IMG/VR virus record: IMGVR_UViG_3300042866_001856
Coordinates: 1-41,440 of that record
Length of the DNA: 41,440 bases
Direction: 5' to 3' (one strand)
DNA from: a virus
Shown: in pieces, positions 8,706 to 19,165 of the stretch
Position numbering within the stretch: position 1 is the stretch's first letter
Layout of the letters: the number at the start of each line of letters is the position of its first letter
Translations under genes and position numbers: made by a program
The notes under the pieces: generated by a model
Seen by the model: the letters and a program-made list of their open reading frames with translations, nothing else
Database searches by the model: none
What the model was told of the DNA's origin: nothing

Positions 8706-9290
8706 ATGATAATCGACATCCAGGCACACGAAGAAAAAGCGAAGCTCGCTGCCGAGCGGGTAATCAACTACGCCGATGGGCTAGAGAAGGCTTTTAGTAA
8801 TCGCATTGACGAAGCGACAAGGGACGTAAGGCGGCGAACTCAGCGAGAAATCGTTACAGCGATGGCCGTTGAAAGGGTCGAGGAGCTTAGGTCTTTTTGC
8901 GTTGACGAAAAGATAATCGACAACGTACTAGCCAAGGAATCGATACTGAAAATCGACGACACGTTTACCGTACCGCTTAGGGCATTCAAAGCACGGCAAA
9001 CGGTCGAAGGGGTCGAGATTGAATTCGTTCGAGGTACCCCGGCGATGGTCTTCGATGGGGCTTTCGGGCCGAAGATTCCTAAGCTCGGCAAAAACATTTA
9101 CAAGCGGCTCGGACGGGCTCGATTCCCAATCCAGAAACTCAGAGACTTGCAAGCAACCAAGATCGAGGGCGTCAAGGATGCCTTCGATCGCGGCGCGGCT
9201 CAGGCTAAATCGATAATGACCCGCAAGCTCAAAGAAGCCAAACAGGACGCAAACGACATACTCGGGAGAGACAAATATGCTACTACGTAA
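8706..9290 (+). CDS. gpZ-like minor tail protein (194 aa)
   Basis: Lambda gpZ helps complete tail-to-head joining and DNA positioning; its length is close to this protein. The motif-like run RGTPAMVFDGAFGPKIPK followed by a helix-rich C-terminus (residues 150-190) resembles the gpZ/minor-tail-Z family. The N-terminus is a long charged helix. The gene precedes the tail tube gene and overlaps it by 14 nt. Confidence 0.65.
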   Translation: MIIDIQAHEEKAKLAAERVINYADGLEKAFSNRIDEATRDVRRRTQREIVTAMAVERVEELRSFCVDEKIIDNVLAKESILKIDDTFTVPLRAFKARQTVEGVEIEFVRGTPAMVFDGAFGPKIPKLGKNIYKRLGRARFPIQKLRDLQATKIEGVKDAFDRGAAQAKSIMTRKLKEAKQDANDILGRDKYATT

Positions 9291-16457: not shown

Positions 16458-17418
16458 GGAACTTTGCAAAAAGTTTCCTGATGCGCCAAACATTGGGCTA
16501 GCTAGGCGAGCCAAGCAGGAAAGGCCCGAGACGTTTGCGACGGTCGATACCGCAAGGAGCATGATTCGCAATATTCGCGGGGCTCTCGGAAAAAAGAATC
16601 GCAATCAAGCGACCCAGCCAAGGCCCAAAGGTAAAGCGGGGCAAGTCCCGAAGATGCCACCGTCGCTAGCAGAACCGTGGGTTCCGATTGAACTAGATTG
16701 CAAGCGATGCGGGATAATCTCAGACGTCCACATTCCGTATCACAGCGAAGTGGCTTTTGAGGCGGCGGTTAAGTCCCTAAAGCAATCTAAAATCGACACG
16801 CTACTAATCAATGGGGACTTCGCGGATTTTTACCAAGTCTCCAGGCACCAGCGAGACCCAAACCATAGAAAGCTATCGGTTGAGTTGAAGCTGGTAATTG
16901 AGGGGCTTGAGTGGTTGCGATCGGAATTCCCAAAGCAAAAAATCATCTACAAGCAGGGCAATCACGAGGAGCGATGGGACCATTTTATCTGGAATCGAGC
17001 TCCTGAGATTTACGACCTTGCAGCGGTACGGCTCGATGAGCTATTGCAACTCAAGCGGCTCAAAATCGAAATGGTCGGAGACAATCCGATTATGCTCGGC
17101 AAATTGCCGGTTCTTCACGGGCACGAATTAGGCAAGTCGATTTTCAGTCCGGTCAATCCAGCTAGAGGGGCGTTTCTTCGGACCCACCATACCGTCTTGG
17201 TTGGCCACTCGCACCAAACAAGCTCCCATGCGGACACGGATATGTTTCATACGGAAACCTTTATTTGGTCTACTGGTTGCCTCTGTGATTTAACTCCAGC
17301 GTATGCTAAAATAAACCGGTGGAATCACGGGTTTGCTTTTGTCGAAGTAAGCCAAGACAAAACATTCAATGTGACAAACATGAGAATTGCAAAAAATGGC
17401 GAAATCAGAAGTGCGTAG
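16417..17418 (+). CDS. Calcineurin-like metallophosphoesterase (333 aa)
   Basis: It should hydrolyse phosphate esters with a two-metal centre. Motifs occur in order: ISDVHIPYH (D103, H105), NGDFAD (G133-D134), GNHEE (181-185), LHGHE (234-237) and VGHSHQ (263-266). About 60 residues at the N-terminus (LARRAKQERPETF) look like a small helix-turn-helix module, seen in other phage phosphoesterases. The start ATG at 16417 has AGGAAATC upstream and overlaps the previous gene by 41 nt. Substrate is unknown; DNA, RNA or nucleotide phosphoesters are possible. It lies beyond the structural genes, so it may act in the cell or be carried in the virion. Confidence 0.87.
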   Translation: MGSPPKTAGRLYLEELCKKFPDAPNIGLARRAKQERPETFATVDTARSMIRNIRGALGKKNRNQATQPRPKGKAGQVPKMPPSLAEPWVPIELDCKRCGIISDVHIPYHSEVAFEAAVKSLKQSKIDTLLINGDFADFYQVSRHQRDPNHRKLSVELKLVIEGLEWLRSEFPKQKIIYKQGNHEERWDHFIWNRAPEIYDLAAVRLDELLQLKRLKIEMVGDNPIMLGKLPVLHGHELGKSIFSPVNPARGAFLRTHHTVLVGHSHQTSSHADTDMFHTETFIWSTGCLCDLTPAYAKINRWNHGFAFVEVSQDKTFNVTNMRIAKNGEIRSA

Positions 17419-17974
17419 CAAGTCAAAACCAACCCCGGACAGTTCCGTTTTAGGGCATAGGTTTGGTAGGCTTACGGCGATTGAAAAGGTTCGAGTTGGG
17501 GATTCTTGGCGGTGGCTCTGCAAGTGCGATTGCGGAGGGGCCACCAAGACAACAGCGCACAAGCTCATTACCGGATGGACGGCTAGCTGCGGTTGTTTCG
17601 CTGCAGAGCAAGCTAGCAATCGACGGGGAGAAAGGCGGTACAACTGGAAGGGCGGCAAGTCGATCGACAATGGTTACATTCGATTGCTTCAACCAAGTCA
17701 CGCAAGGGCTAATTGCAGAGGCTACGTCTACGAGCATTTAGTGGTGATGGAAAACCACTTGAACAGGCCATTGACCCCAAATGAAAACGTCCACCATTTG
17801 AACGGGGATCGCGGGGACAACCGCATCGAAAATCTAGAGCTATGGTCAACTAGGCAACCAAAGGGGCAACGGATTCCCGACAAGGTTCAGTTTGCTATTG
17901 AAATCTTAGCTCAATACGGGTCTGCAAATGAAATCGAAAAGCTGCTGGAGTTTGTCAGAGCAAGGGGCGCGTAG
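17396..17974 (+). CDS. HNH endonuclease (192 aa)
   Basis: A cysteine-containing N-terminal region (WLCKCDCGG, then SCGC at about residues 43-70) probably binds zinc or DNA. The HNH nuclease core is in the second half, with EHLVVMENHL, VHHLNGDRGDNRIENLEL and the terminal helix. Such proteins are either homing-type nucleases or phage DNA-processing nucleases. The ATG at 17396 was chosen over the TTG at 17387; both overlap the previous gene's end. It overlaps the next gene by 1 nt. As a free-standing gene at a module boundary, it could be a homing endonuclease; no intron or inserted gene is visible beside it. Confidence 0.85.
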   Translation: MAKSEVRSKSKPTPDSSVLGHRFGRLTAIEKVRVGDSWRWLCKCDCGGATKTTAHKLITGWTASCGCFAAEQASNRRGERRYNWKGGKSIDNGYIRLLQPSHARANCRGYVYEHLVVMENHLNRPLTPNENVHHLNGDRGDNRIENLELWSTRQPKGQRIPDKVQFAIEILAQYGSANEIEKLLEFVRARGA

Positions 17975-18272: not shown

Positions 18273-18300
18273 GCGTTTTCGTTGGCGAAACGCATGTTTT
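18273..18300 (+). terminator. Possible terminator at the end of the late operon
   Basis: GCGTTTTCG (18273-18281) can pair with CGAAACGC (18286-18293) with one bulged T and a TTGG loop; ATGTTTT follows. The stem is good but the U-tract is short, so termination strength is uncertain. It lies 36 nt after the last late gene. Confidence 0.4.
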
Positions 18301-18309
18301 CGGGAAAAC
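18296..18309. promoter_or_regulatory. Operator-like dyad upstream of promoter P1
   Basis: GTTTTCGGGAAAAC is an inverted repeat (GTTTTC, GG, GAAAAC), 24 bp upstream of the P1 -35 box. A 13-nt match on the opposite strand (TTTTCCCGAAAAC) occurs at 18747-18759, 3 bp before the P2 -35 box. A repressor or activator binding site is plausible. Confidence 0.4.
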
Positions 18310-18333
18310 TTCGATATCTTTTCAATAAAGGTG

Positions 18334-18362
18334 TTGATCTTTCTTTGGGGTGGCGATAATAT
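18334..18362 (+). promoter_or_regulatory. Promoter P1 (sigma70 type)
   Basis: TTGATC (18334-18339), a 17-bp spacer, and TAATAT (18357-18362), followed by ACACACGTC. The same arrangement with the same spacing recurs at P2, and the two share the block GATAATATACACACGTC. It would drive the 71-aa micro-ORF and its structured RNA. Confidence 0.75.
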
Positions 18363-18417
18363 ACACACGTCGGAAGCAAATGAGGCGACCGACGGAAACT
18401 TAACCAGGGCAGTAACG

Positions 18418-18633
18418 ATGAACGCAACAACCGCAAGCAAAATCGAAGTGACCAGCAAGATTGTAAGCCGCGACCCGTACAAGTACGGCGCAACCGCAAG
18501 CGTGACGATTAACGGCCAGACCATCGAAGCAAGCTATATCGGAACGGCAGACGAATCCCGCAAGGAAGTCAAGGCCGGCGCGATTGTCGAACTGCGAGCC
18601 AAAGCAAGCCGACTTGGGACCAGGATCAGCTAG
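18418..18633 (+). CDS. Micro-protein after promoter P1 (71 aa)
   Basis: This is the only ORF in the P1 transcript. It is basic and Ala/Thr/Lys-rich with a beta-like middle (ATASVTINGQTIEASYIG) that resembles a small barrel or nucleic-acid-binding fold. The start at 18418 follows TTAACCAGGGCAGTAACG, with weak SD. The first 15 nt at the start, ACGATGAACGCAACA, are repeated at 19191-19205, at the start of another micro-ORF. No family recognised; as the first gene of the presumed early region it may be an early host-acting protein. Confidence 0.55.
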   Translation: MNATTASKIEVTSKIVSRDPYKYGATASVTINGQTIEASYIGTADESRKEVKAGAIVELRAKASRLGTRIS

Positions 18634-18685
18634 ATACTCGGCTAGCTCAAGGCTAGTCGCGGTAGTAACGGCAGGATAGAACTTG

Positions 18686-18723
18686 CCGCTCCTGGACCTG
18701 CCCATCGGCCAGAGCGGTTTTTT
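18686..18723 (+). terminator. Intrinsic terminator ending the P1 unit
   Basis: CCGCT-C-CTGG (18686-18695) pairs with CCAG-AGCGG (18709-18717) with one bulged C, followed by T6 (18718-18723). Upstream hairpins also exist at 18641-18655 (CTAGC/GCTAG) and 18670-18687 (GGCAGG/CTTGCC). Transcripts from P1 would end here, about 355 nt long. Confidence 0.75.
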
Positions 18724-18746
18724 AATCTCGGAAAAACTTCCACATC

Positions 18747-18759
18747 TTTTCCCGAAAAC
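18747..18759. promoter_or_regulatory. Operator-like element at promoter P2
   Basis: TTTTCCCGAAAAC ends 3 bp before the -35 box, overlapping where an activator or repressor would touch RNA polymerase. It is the reverse complement of the dyad upstream of P1. Confidence 0.4.
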
Positions 18760-18762
18760 CTG

Positions 18763-18791
18763 TTGACCTTTAATTTACCGCCCGATAATAT
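18763..18791 (+). promoter_or_regulatory. Promoter P2 (sigma70 type)
   Basis: TTGACC (18763-18768), 17 bp, TAATAT (18786-18791). The upstream sequence (GGAAAAACTTC...ATCTTTTC) matches P1 closely, as does the downstream block to GTC. P2 lies just after the P1-unit terminator, so it drives a separate transcript. Confidence 0.75.
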
Positions 18792-18844
18792 ACACACGTC
18801 AGCAACAACGCTGACGCGAAACCACTAACCGGAGACGATGAACG

Positions 18845-19021
18845 ATGTTTTACGCAATCAGAAGAAACCCAAACAACACAAGCCTGTTTTTTGATTACGA
18901 CACGGAAACCGGAAAAGAATTCCAAACGCGCGAAGAAATTGAAAAAGCAATCGCAGTTTGGAAGTCGCGAGTTACGCCGAGAATGGCTGAGGGCGTAGTT
19001 TTCGAGATTTTTCAACGCTAA
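18845..19021 (+). CDS. Micro-protein after promoter P2 (58 aa)
   Basis: The reading frame MFYAIRRNPNN... ends at 19021. It is short, charged, and contains a likely helix (EEIEKAIAVWKSRV). The start region contains GGAGACGATGAACGATG (18831-18847), repeated exactly at 19180-19196; the second ATG of the repeat is used here, 10 nt after GGAG. Another ATG at 18838 opens only an 18-codon frame. No family recognised; its start and promoter mirror the P1 unit. Confidence 0.5.
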   Translation: MFYAIRRNPNNTSLFFDYDTETGKEFQTREEIEKAIAVWKSRVTPRMAEGVVFEIFQR

Positions 19022-19027
19022 CTCACT

Positions 19028-19130
19028 CGGGGGCTTGGCAACTTGGAGTTGCGGACTGGATCAGGCTGGATACCTGATGGGCGAAAGCCTCTCCAAACCA
19101 GTTCAATCTGTTCGAATCGGGAGCCCCTGC
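19028..19130 (+). ncRNA. Cloverleaf-like structured RNA with a tRNA-type T-loop
   Basis: Pairings seen by eye: closing stem CGGGGGC (19028-34) with GCCCCTG (19123-29); hairpin GCAAC/GTTGC (19038-42, 19048-52); 7-bp helix GGACTGG/CCAGTTC (19053-59, 19098-104). That helix encloses two hairpins, ATCAGG/CCTGAT (19060-65, 19073-78, loop CTGGATA) and GGGC/GCCT with a GAAA loop (19079-90). A final arm has the T-loop TTCGAAT (19111-117). Closing stem, D-like arm and T-like arm suggest a tRNA-like fold, but the anticodon region does not fit a normal tRNA: 103 nt, an enlarged third arm and no CCA. It follows promoter P2 and precedes a terminator, so it is probably transcribed. It could be a degenerate tRNA-Ser (GGA in the loop), a tRNA mimic or a novel RNA. 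Confidence 0.4.
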
Positions 19131-19147
19131 TAGCCACCAACGGCGAA

Positions 19148-19165
19148 ACCCTTCGGGGTCTTTTT
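19148..19165 (+). terminator. Intrinsic terminator ending the P2 unit
   Basis: ACCC and GGGT (19148-51, 19156-59) enclose the stable tetraloop TTCG, followed by CTTTTT. The stem is short but the UUCG loop and U-tract are typical. Transcripts from P2 would be about 370 nt. Confidence 0.55.

Follow-up and report, generated by a model that had tools for sequence, protein, structure and literature searches.

Two tandem units of a probable exchangeable-cassette family in an uncultured phage, the second carrying a predicted tRNA-like RNA

In T4-type phages, promoter-early stem-loop (PeSL) cassettes are repeated units of an early promoter and a stem-loop that surround small accessory ORFs and mediate the shuffling of genes among related phages (Arbiol et al. 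2010; Comeau et al. 2014; cited here via PMC4503421). We describe a comparable locus in the virus record IMGVR_UViG_3300042866_001856, whose whole analyzed stretch of 41,440 nucleotides is referred to here as the window. Like PeSL units, the two units in the window link a repeated host-type promoter (as judged by sequence) to a stem-loop terminator, and related phages exchange nonhomologous small ORFs at the unit they have in common. Unlike the T4-type myoviruses, the window phage has a lambda-family portal and a GpA-like terminase in a 41.4-kb record, and the units are confined to one fixed island of one to three units. The locus also differs from PeSL in its conserved 5' hairpin and in a near-invariant box running from the -10 into the leader, and its 3' modules are exchanged too, one of them being a tRNA-like RNA that we call TLS-A. 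Because the genome is not that of a T4-type myovirus, the cassettes seem to work like PeSL units without being members of the PeSL family. They would extend promoter-linked gene shuffling, known from T4-type phages, to an uncultured group of lambda-portal phages. The cassettes thus resemble T4-type PeSL units, and the novel part is TLS-A.

TLS-A can itself be compared with two known RNAs. It shares with tRNA (Rfam RF00005) a 7-bp acceptor, a D-arm with GG, a T-arm with GUUCGAAUC (consensus GTTCRANYC), and a four-way junction. Unlike tRNA, it has no free 7-nt codon-reading anticodon loop; two hairpins are inserted there, conserved by covariation in four records. It also has a 3-nt variable region and one T-stem mismatch. 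With tmRNA, it has in common a tRNA-like half and the replacement of the anticodon arm by another structure, but it has no tag-coding part, and identity with tmRNA was rejected after a negative ARAGORN tmRNA search.

Both window units follow one pattern, TTGAYC-N17-TAATAT with an identical GATAATATACACACGTC box. The transcript predicted for each begins with a 5' hairpin, which is followed by a ribosome-binding site, a single small ORF, and a terminator (Table 1). The twin promoter units of the preliminary description are borne out in their hexamers, their spacing, and the box and upstream block common to P1 and P2, as are its single micro-ORF per unit and its intrinsic terminator at each unit end, strong in unit 1 and weaker in unit 2. 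Exact copies of the 17-mer occur at these two sites and nowhere else in the window, and none of 100 shuffles gave two box matches with up to three mismatches. The upstream blocks are alike at 45 of 77 positions over -60 to +17. The promoter hexamers are imperfect, and a simple promoter scan accepted P2 only (P1 scored 8 of 12, below the threshold), so the case for the promoters rests on conservation. A variant with an 18-bp spacer, N18-TAAGAT-ACACACGTC, was seen by eye in L026 and is also present in several more loci; it supports TAATAT/TAAGAT as the -10. It also shows that the ACACACGTC segment, the expected transcript start, is itself conserved.

Table 1. Positions of the cassette features in the window and of related tRNA-like RNAs in other records (L numbers).
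Feature	Position	Strand	Remarks
P1 conserved upstream block	18295-18354	+	-35 TTGATC at 18334-18339; aligned with the block in about 39 distinct sister-phage units
P1 box GATAATATACACACGTC	18355-18371	+	-10 TAATAT at 18357-18362, 17 bp from -35
Unit 1 leader hairpin CGTCGG...CCGACG	18368-18394	+	z -3.95; sister units with alternative pairs GG/CC, AG/CT, GC/GC
Micro-ORF 1, 71 aa	18418-18633	+	Predicted beta-beta-beta-alpha fold, pLDDT 82; no family match
3' module E1 of unit 1	18634-18723	+	Three hairpins, the last a strong intrinsic terminator (18686-18717 + T6)
P2 conserved upstream block	18724-18783	+	-35 TTGACC at 18763-18768; from sister-phage alignment
P2 box GATAATATACACACGTC	18784-18800	+	-10 TAATAT at 18786-18791, 17 bp from -35
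Unit 2 leader hairpin CGTCAGC-AACAAC-GCTGACG	18797-18816	+	z -4.42; kept in sister units with G-U or other pairs
Micro-ORF 2, 58 aa	18845-19021	+	Predicted fold, pLDDT 91; no family match; same ORF in position 1 of L004
TLS-A	19028-19130	+	Acceptor, D-arm, anticodon stem with two-hairpin insert, T-arm; between ORF 2 and terminator
Unit 2 terminator-like ACCC-UUCG-GGGU + T5	19148-19165	+	Hairpin at 19148-19159; weaker than that of unit 1
Third small ORF, 55 aa	19194-19361	+	Same ribosome-binding/start sequence; lacks its own promoter; present in L009 and L027 too
Second tRNA-like family	L038:1501-1569; L039:1500-1572; L026:12669-12760; L044:1030-1119; L063:16854-16941; L075:7415-7502; L079; L082; L083; L086	Minus in L039 and L044	
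Third tRNA-like type	L026:12514-12580; L045:1432-1497; L051:6417-6541; L073:19702-19781; L083:1450-1535; L090:1605-1745; L091:1471-1609		

By eye, the upstream block and -35 region (window 18300-18345 and sister promoters in the alignment) resemble a direct repeat, TTGATCTTT, with copies about 22 bp apart. A repeat search found none in the window copy; the repeat is possibly an operator or activator site.

The hairpin foot at the expected 5' end is CGTC, the final four bases of the box. For both window leaders, 0 of 500 shuffles were equally stable. In single-sequence folds, used in place of counts on a MAFFT alignment because that alignment is not structure-aware, z is -2 or lower for 23 of 35 distinct leaders, and the hairpin is missing in 6 of the 35. 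Hairpins of this kind at a 5' end usually protect it.

The preliminary description proposed a search for the shared block in related phages, and this search found the box in about 30 other records, with units that differ in content. Exact copies of the 17-mer lie in 30 stretches of other viral records (uncultured phages), and a looser box query returned nearly the same set. The family was collected by exact box match, which hides variants such as the 18-bp spacer form in L026, and L017 was excluded as an independent case, being a second record of the window's virus. Sister-phage DNA totaling 903 kb, in which loci that overlap were counted repeatedly, holds 68 exact copies of the box with a proper -35 and one copy with a single mismatch. 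The units of a phage, one to three in tandem, lie at a single fixed place and differ in their small ORF, and in the window and 13 other records this island is flanked by metallophosphoesterase and 87-aa genes before it and a 69-aa zinc-ribbon-like gene after it. DNA searches gave no relatives among named phages or plasmids. The box including its -35 had no match among 84,980 species genomes, and the idea that the box promoter copies a host promoter was rejected on this result.

A 75-nt conserved block precedes each copy of the box. Among 37 distinct units, the 80-nt promoter block is 73% shared, and the 100-nt segments downstream average 27% identity. Pairs of phages are 90 to 100% identical up to the box and leader and are unrelated thereafter. 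L021 and L022, for example, match at 100% over 400 bp or more as far as P2 but are unrelated from about +40, the window and L008 have unit 1 in common and diverge at the unit 2 leader, and the pairs L018/L027 and L013/L016 show the same succession of identity and break. The same ORF recurs in different positions with different neighbors and 3' modules: the 58-aa ORF takes second place in the window but first place in L004, and an MSQEQ ORF that comes first in L003 is the second one in L008 and L018. The 3' modules also move, as E1 follows the same ORF in L008 and a different one in L024, and the tRNA-like element stands behind a different ORF in L005. Because phage pairs are near-identical up to the box or leader and then unrelated, the units appear to be exchangeable expression cassettes, swapped among related phages at shared blocks. 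This exchange is the main feature of the locus and was absent from the proposals of the preliminary description.

We therefore regard it as highly probable that the window holds two tandem members of a family of exchangeable expression cassettes, in a fixed island at the head of the early/replication region, with unit 2 being bifunctional. By sequence, each cassette consists of a sigma-70-like promoter with its conserved upstream block, the near-invariant box from the -10 into the 5' end, and the 5' hairpin; after these come a ribosome-binding site and a single small orphan ORF, and a 3' RNA/terminator module closes the cassette. The position of the units makes the early expression and the action on the host suggested in the preliminary description plausible. 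The host RNA polymerase would transcribe the cassettes soon after infection, the leader hairpin would protect the mini-mRNA, and the small proteins may serve as accessory host-interaction factors. The shared blocks would provide homology for swapping, perhaps aided by the phage's RecE-type exonuclease. The genes downstream include an exonuclease VIII-like protein and matches to a replication initiator and a DnaB-like helicase.

It is unlikely that P1 and P2 are instead the tandem main early promoters of the downstream operon, with the small ORFs as leader genes, partial terminators setting expression levels, and the shared sequence left by a recent duplication without selection for exchange. 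Different ORFs stand behind near-identical promoters across phages, with breakpoints at the box and leader, and duplication alone cannot create unrelated ORFs. In the window, however, the box does occur only here, directly before early-type genes, and the last unit mostly has a weaker terminator with more genes behind it; in the sister phages, most last units end in the linker that also closes unit 2. Since the unit 2 terminator is weak, P2 may chiefly drive the operon behind unit 2. Cassette exchange and a role as tandem early promoters can both hold.

In the sister phages, what varies between units is an ORF that codes for protein; it follows a ribosome-binding site and shows an excess of synonymous and third-position changes. 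Third-position changes dominate in the ORF families with enough differences (e.g., 95/139 and 84/128, summed over pairs). In the window ORFs, divergence is too small to judge alone, with three synonymous changes and one nonsynonymous change for the 58-aa ORF and one nonsynonymous change for the 71-aa ORF. Given the third-position excess and the confident fold predictions for both window proteins (each predicted as a single sequence), the ORFs of the cassette family are most readily read as coding and the units as mini-mRNAs. The family of small RNAs suggested in the preliminary description was thus mostly wrong. Its alternative of an RNA/peptide pair suits unit 2, where a coding ORF and a conserved tRNA-like RNA lie in one predicted transcript, but the units are not primarily small RNAs. 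We consider it very unlikely that the two transcripts form an early small-RNA pair that acts mainly as RNA, with the micro-ORFs incidental. The structure expected of such RNAs is there in part, as the leaders, the tRNA-like region of unit 2, and the 3' module of unit 1 (z = -2.37) fold partly above chance, but folding of the whole units is ordinary (z = -0.85 and -1.36). The ORFs, moreover, vary by unit, yet each begins after a ribosome-binding site and most of their changes fall on third positions; those of the window give confident folds.

Neither window ORF has a match in Pfam, PHROGs, or PADLOC, including the PADLOC anti-phage defense models, and fold searches with the ORF models gave nothing below E 0.001. 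For the 71-aa model, the best PDB matches have E values of 0.06 or worse; they are double-stranded-RNA-binding and ribosome-hibernation folds, which we treat only as a lead. One sister cassette family (54 aa; L012, L020, L025, and L026) is a member of DUF1391 (PF07151), a group of small accessory ORFs of cryptic lambdoid prophages; the two window ORFs match no family. The 17-nt box could serve as a searchable tag for collecting the accessory genes of this phage group, nearly all of which, among those tested, have no family match. In L006, the product of the unit with its box at 9238 (on the reverse strand) is 99 aa long and has a DGYHRLAG motif that by eye resembles ParB-type domains; this protein has no match in Pfam or PHROGs. 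At the RNA level, units 1 and 2 have no Rfam family match above the gathering score. An Atu_Ti3 match in unit 1 was rejected at 23.5 bits, below the cutoff of 50, as was a hammerhead-like ribozyme spotted by eye (CUGAUG...GAAA), which had no Rfam match at E<=5.

TLS-A was not mentioned in the preliminary description. Its sequence folds as a four-way junction (z = -2.75 for the tRNA-like region). A covariance model built from two copies identified homologues in G003, in G031 (a 169-kb record; 92 bits), and in G037 (a 35-kb record; 98 bits). TLS-A is not a standard part of the cassette, since only two genomes of the island family have it, that of the window and L017 and that of L005. When 33 stem pairs were checked in four copies, several were found to change on both sides. 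The acceptor has a G-C to A-U change, hairpin 1 is rebuilt across copies (AUCAGG/CCUGAU, GCGG/CCGC, and GCUGG/CCAGC), and hairpin 2 has altered stems under an unaltered GAAA loop. Only one pair is ever broken, the outer one of hairpin 2, which both distant copies have lost. The body (D-arm, stem, T-arm, and UCCAAACCAGUUCAAUC) is nearly invariant. UGGA in hairpin 1, at 19067-19070 in the window, and UCCA on the 3' side of hairpin 2, at 19092-19095, are kept in all copies, without covariation, and could pair as a pseudoknot. Because its stems covary and the anticodon loop is replaced, TLS-A appears to be a conserved structured RNA that by its anatomy is not a decoding tRNA. No Rfam family matches it, and the Rfam tRNA model had no match at the gathering score, at E<=5 in the region, or in the window record. 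A search on phage cloverleaf RNAs without an anticodon found nothing relevant in the literature collection that it covered.

Tentatively, we place TLS-A in an undescribed group of phage tRNA mimics with a cloverleaf body, covarying hairpins for the anticodon loop, and a possible UGGA/UCCA pseudoknot. Such RNAs would be shared by small and large phages whose hosts are perhaps the same, and would be produced either by themselves or as the 3' half of a protein/RNA cassette that can be swapped. As decoys or inhibitors, they may target host translation, the enzymes that process tRNA, or defenses that cut tRNA. Less firmly still, we suggest that TLS-A may be cut from the unit 2 transcript by tRNA-processing enzymes (RNase P) and act as a tRNA mimic rather than as a decoding tRNA. 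Of the two parts of the locus, TLS-A is the more surprising. It is a conserved and apparently nondecoding cloverleaf RNA that Rfam lacks and that occurs in phage records of 35, 41, and 169 kb, and it makes phage use of tRNA mimicry directly testable.

We find it doubtful that TLS-A is only an mRNA 3'-end stabilizer or a processing/terminator element that does nothing in trans. Its place between stop codon and terminator would suit such a role, as would the other tRNA-like elements of the group, which run straight into T-tracts. The homologue in the 169-kb record, however, lies behind a consensus promoter (TTGACA-N16-TATAAT) without an ORF and is followed directly by a second tRNA-like RNA and a T-run, an arrangement that points to free-standing tRNA-like RNAs. 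A real tRNA-Trp(CCA) with a small intron, by which unit 2 would deliver a translating tRNA, is scarcely credible: ARAGORN with short introns does read TLS-A in this way with a 31-nt insert (0 calls in 2.49 Mb of shuffled window), and its 3' loop, CUCCAAA, equals a tRNA-Trp anticodon loop, that of Escherichia coli, but the G031 and G037 homologues have AUCCAAA and different inserts with compensating stems, so that the insert is seen as a folded part rather than a removable intron, while a bulge-helix-bulge was not seen, UGGA and UCCA could pair together, and the window record has no Rfam tRNA match; a decoding or intron tRNA was rejected on the covariation in the insert.

The Rfam tRNA model did find further cloverleaf RNAs in the sister records, and this phage circle has two tRNA-like types besides TLS-A. 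The commonest, with the core GGAAGTTATTGCGGCGGAAC, is present in 15 stretches; its arms in place of the anticodon are GNRA-capped or longer, and its T-stem shows double changes. It supports the view that tRNA mimicry is a habit of the circle. In this second tRNA-like family (GCCCCGGAAGTTATTGCGGCGGAAC ... GAGGGTTCRAATCCCTCTCGGGGC), a GNRA-capped or long variable arm stands for the anticodon loop, a T-run follows, and the T-stem covaries. This family is also present in 111-kb and 169-kb phage records. Its core had a single match in genomes, on a MAG contig and without the fold, and the contig was rejected as a pointer to the host. A third type begins with GGATCGGCGG, varies greatly in its middle parts, and has at its end a (C)CCGATCC-type acceptor plus TTTT. 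It mostly forms a tandem with the second family, lying just upstream of it, or adjoins TLS-A. Inside the cassette island of a sister phage (L003:9313-9395), we also observed a cloverleaf-like RNA whose acceptor stem runs into TTTTTT and which could double as a terminator.

Two neighboring genes deserve mention. The conserved 87-aa protein just upstream of P1 (17974-18237) has a HECLH zinc-protease-like motif and no family match. Between its gene and the metallophosphoesterase gene lies an HNH endonuclease gene (17387-17974) that is present at this place only in the window, L017, and L030 and is therefore possibly a homing-type insertion.
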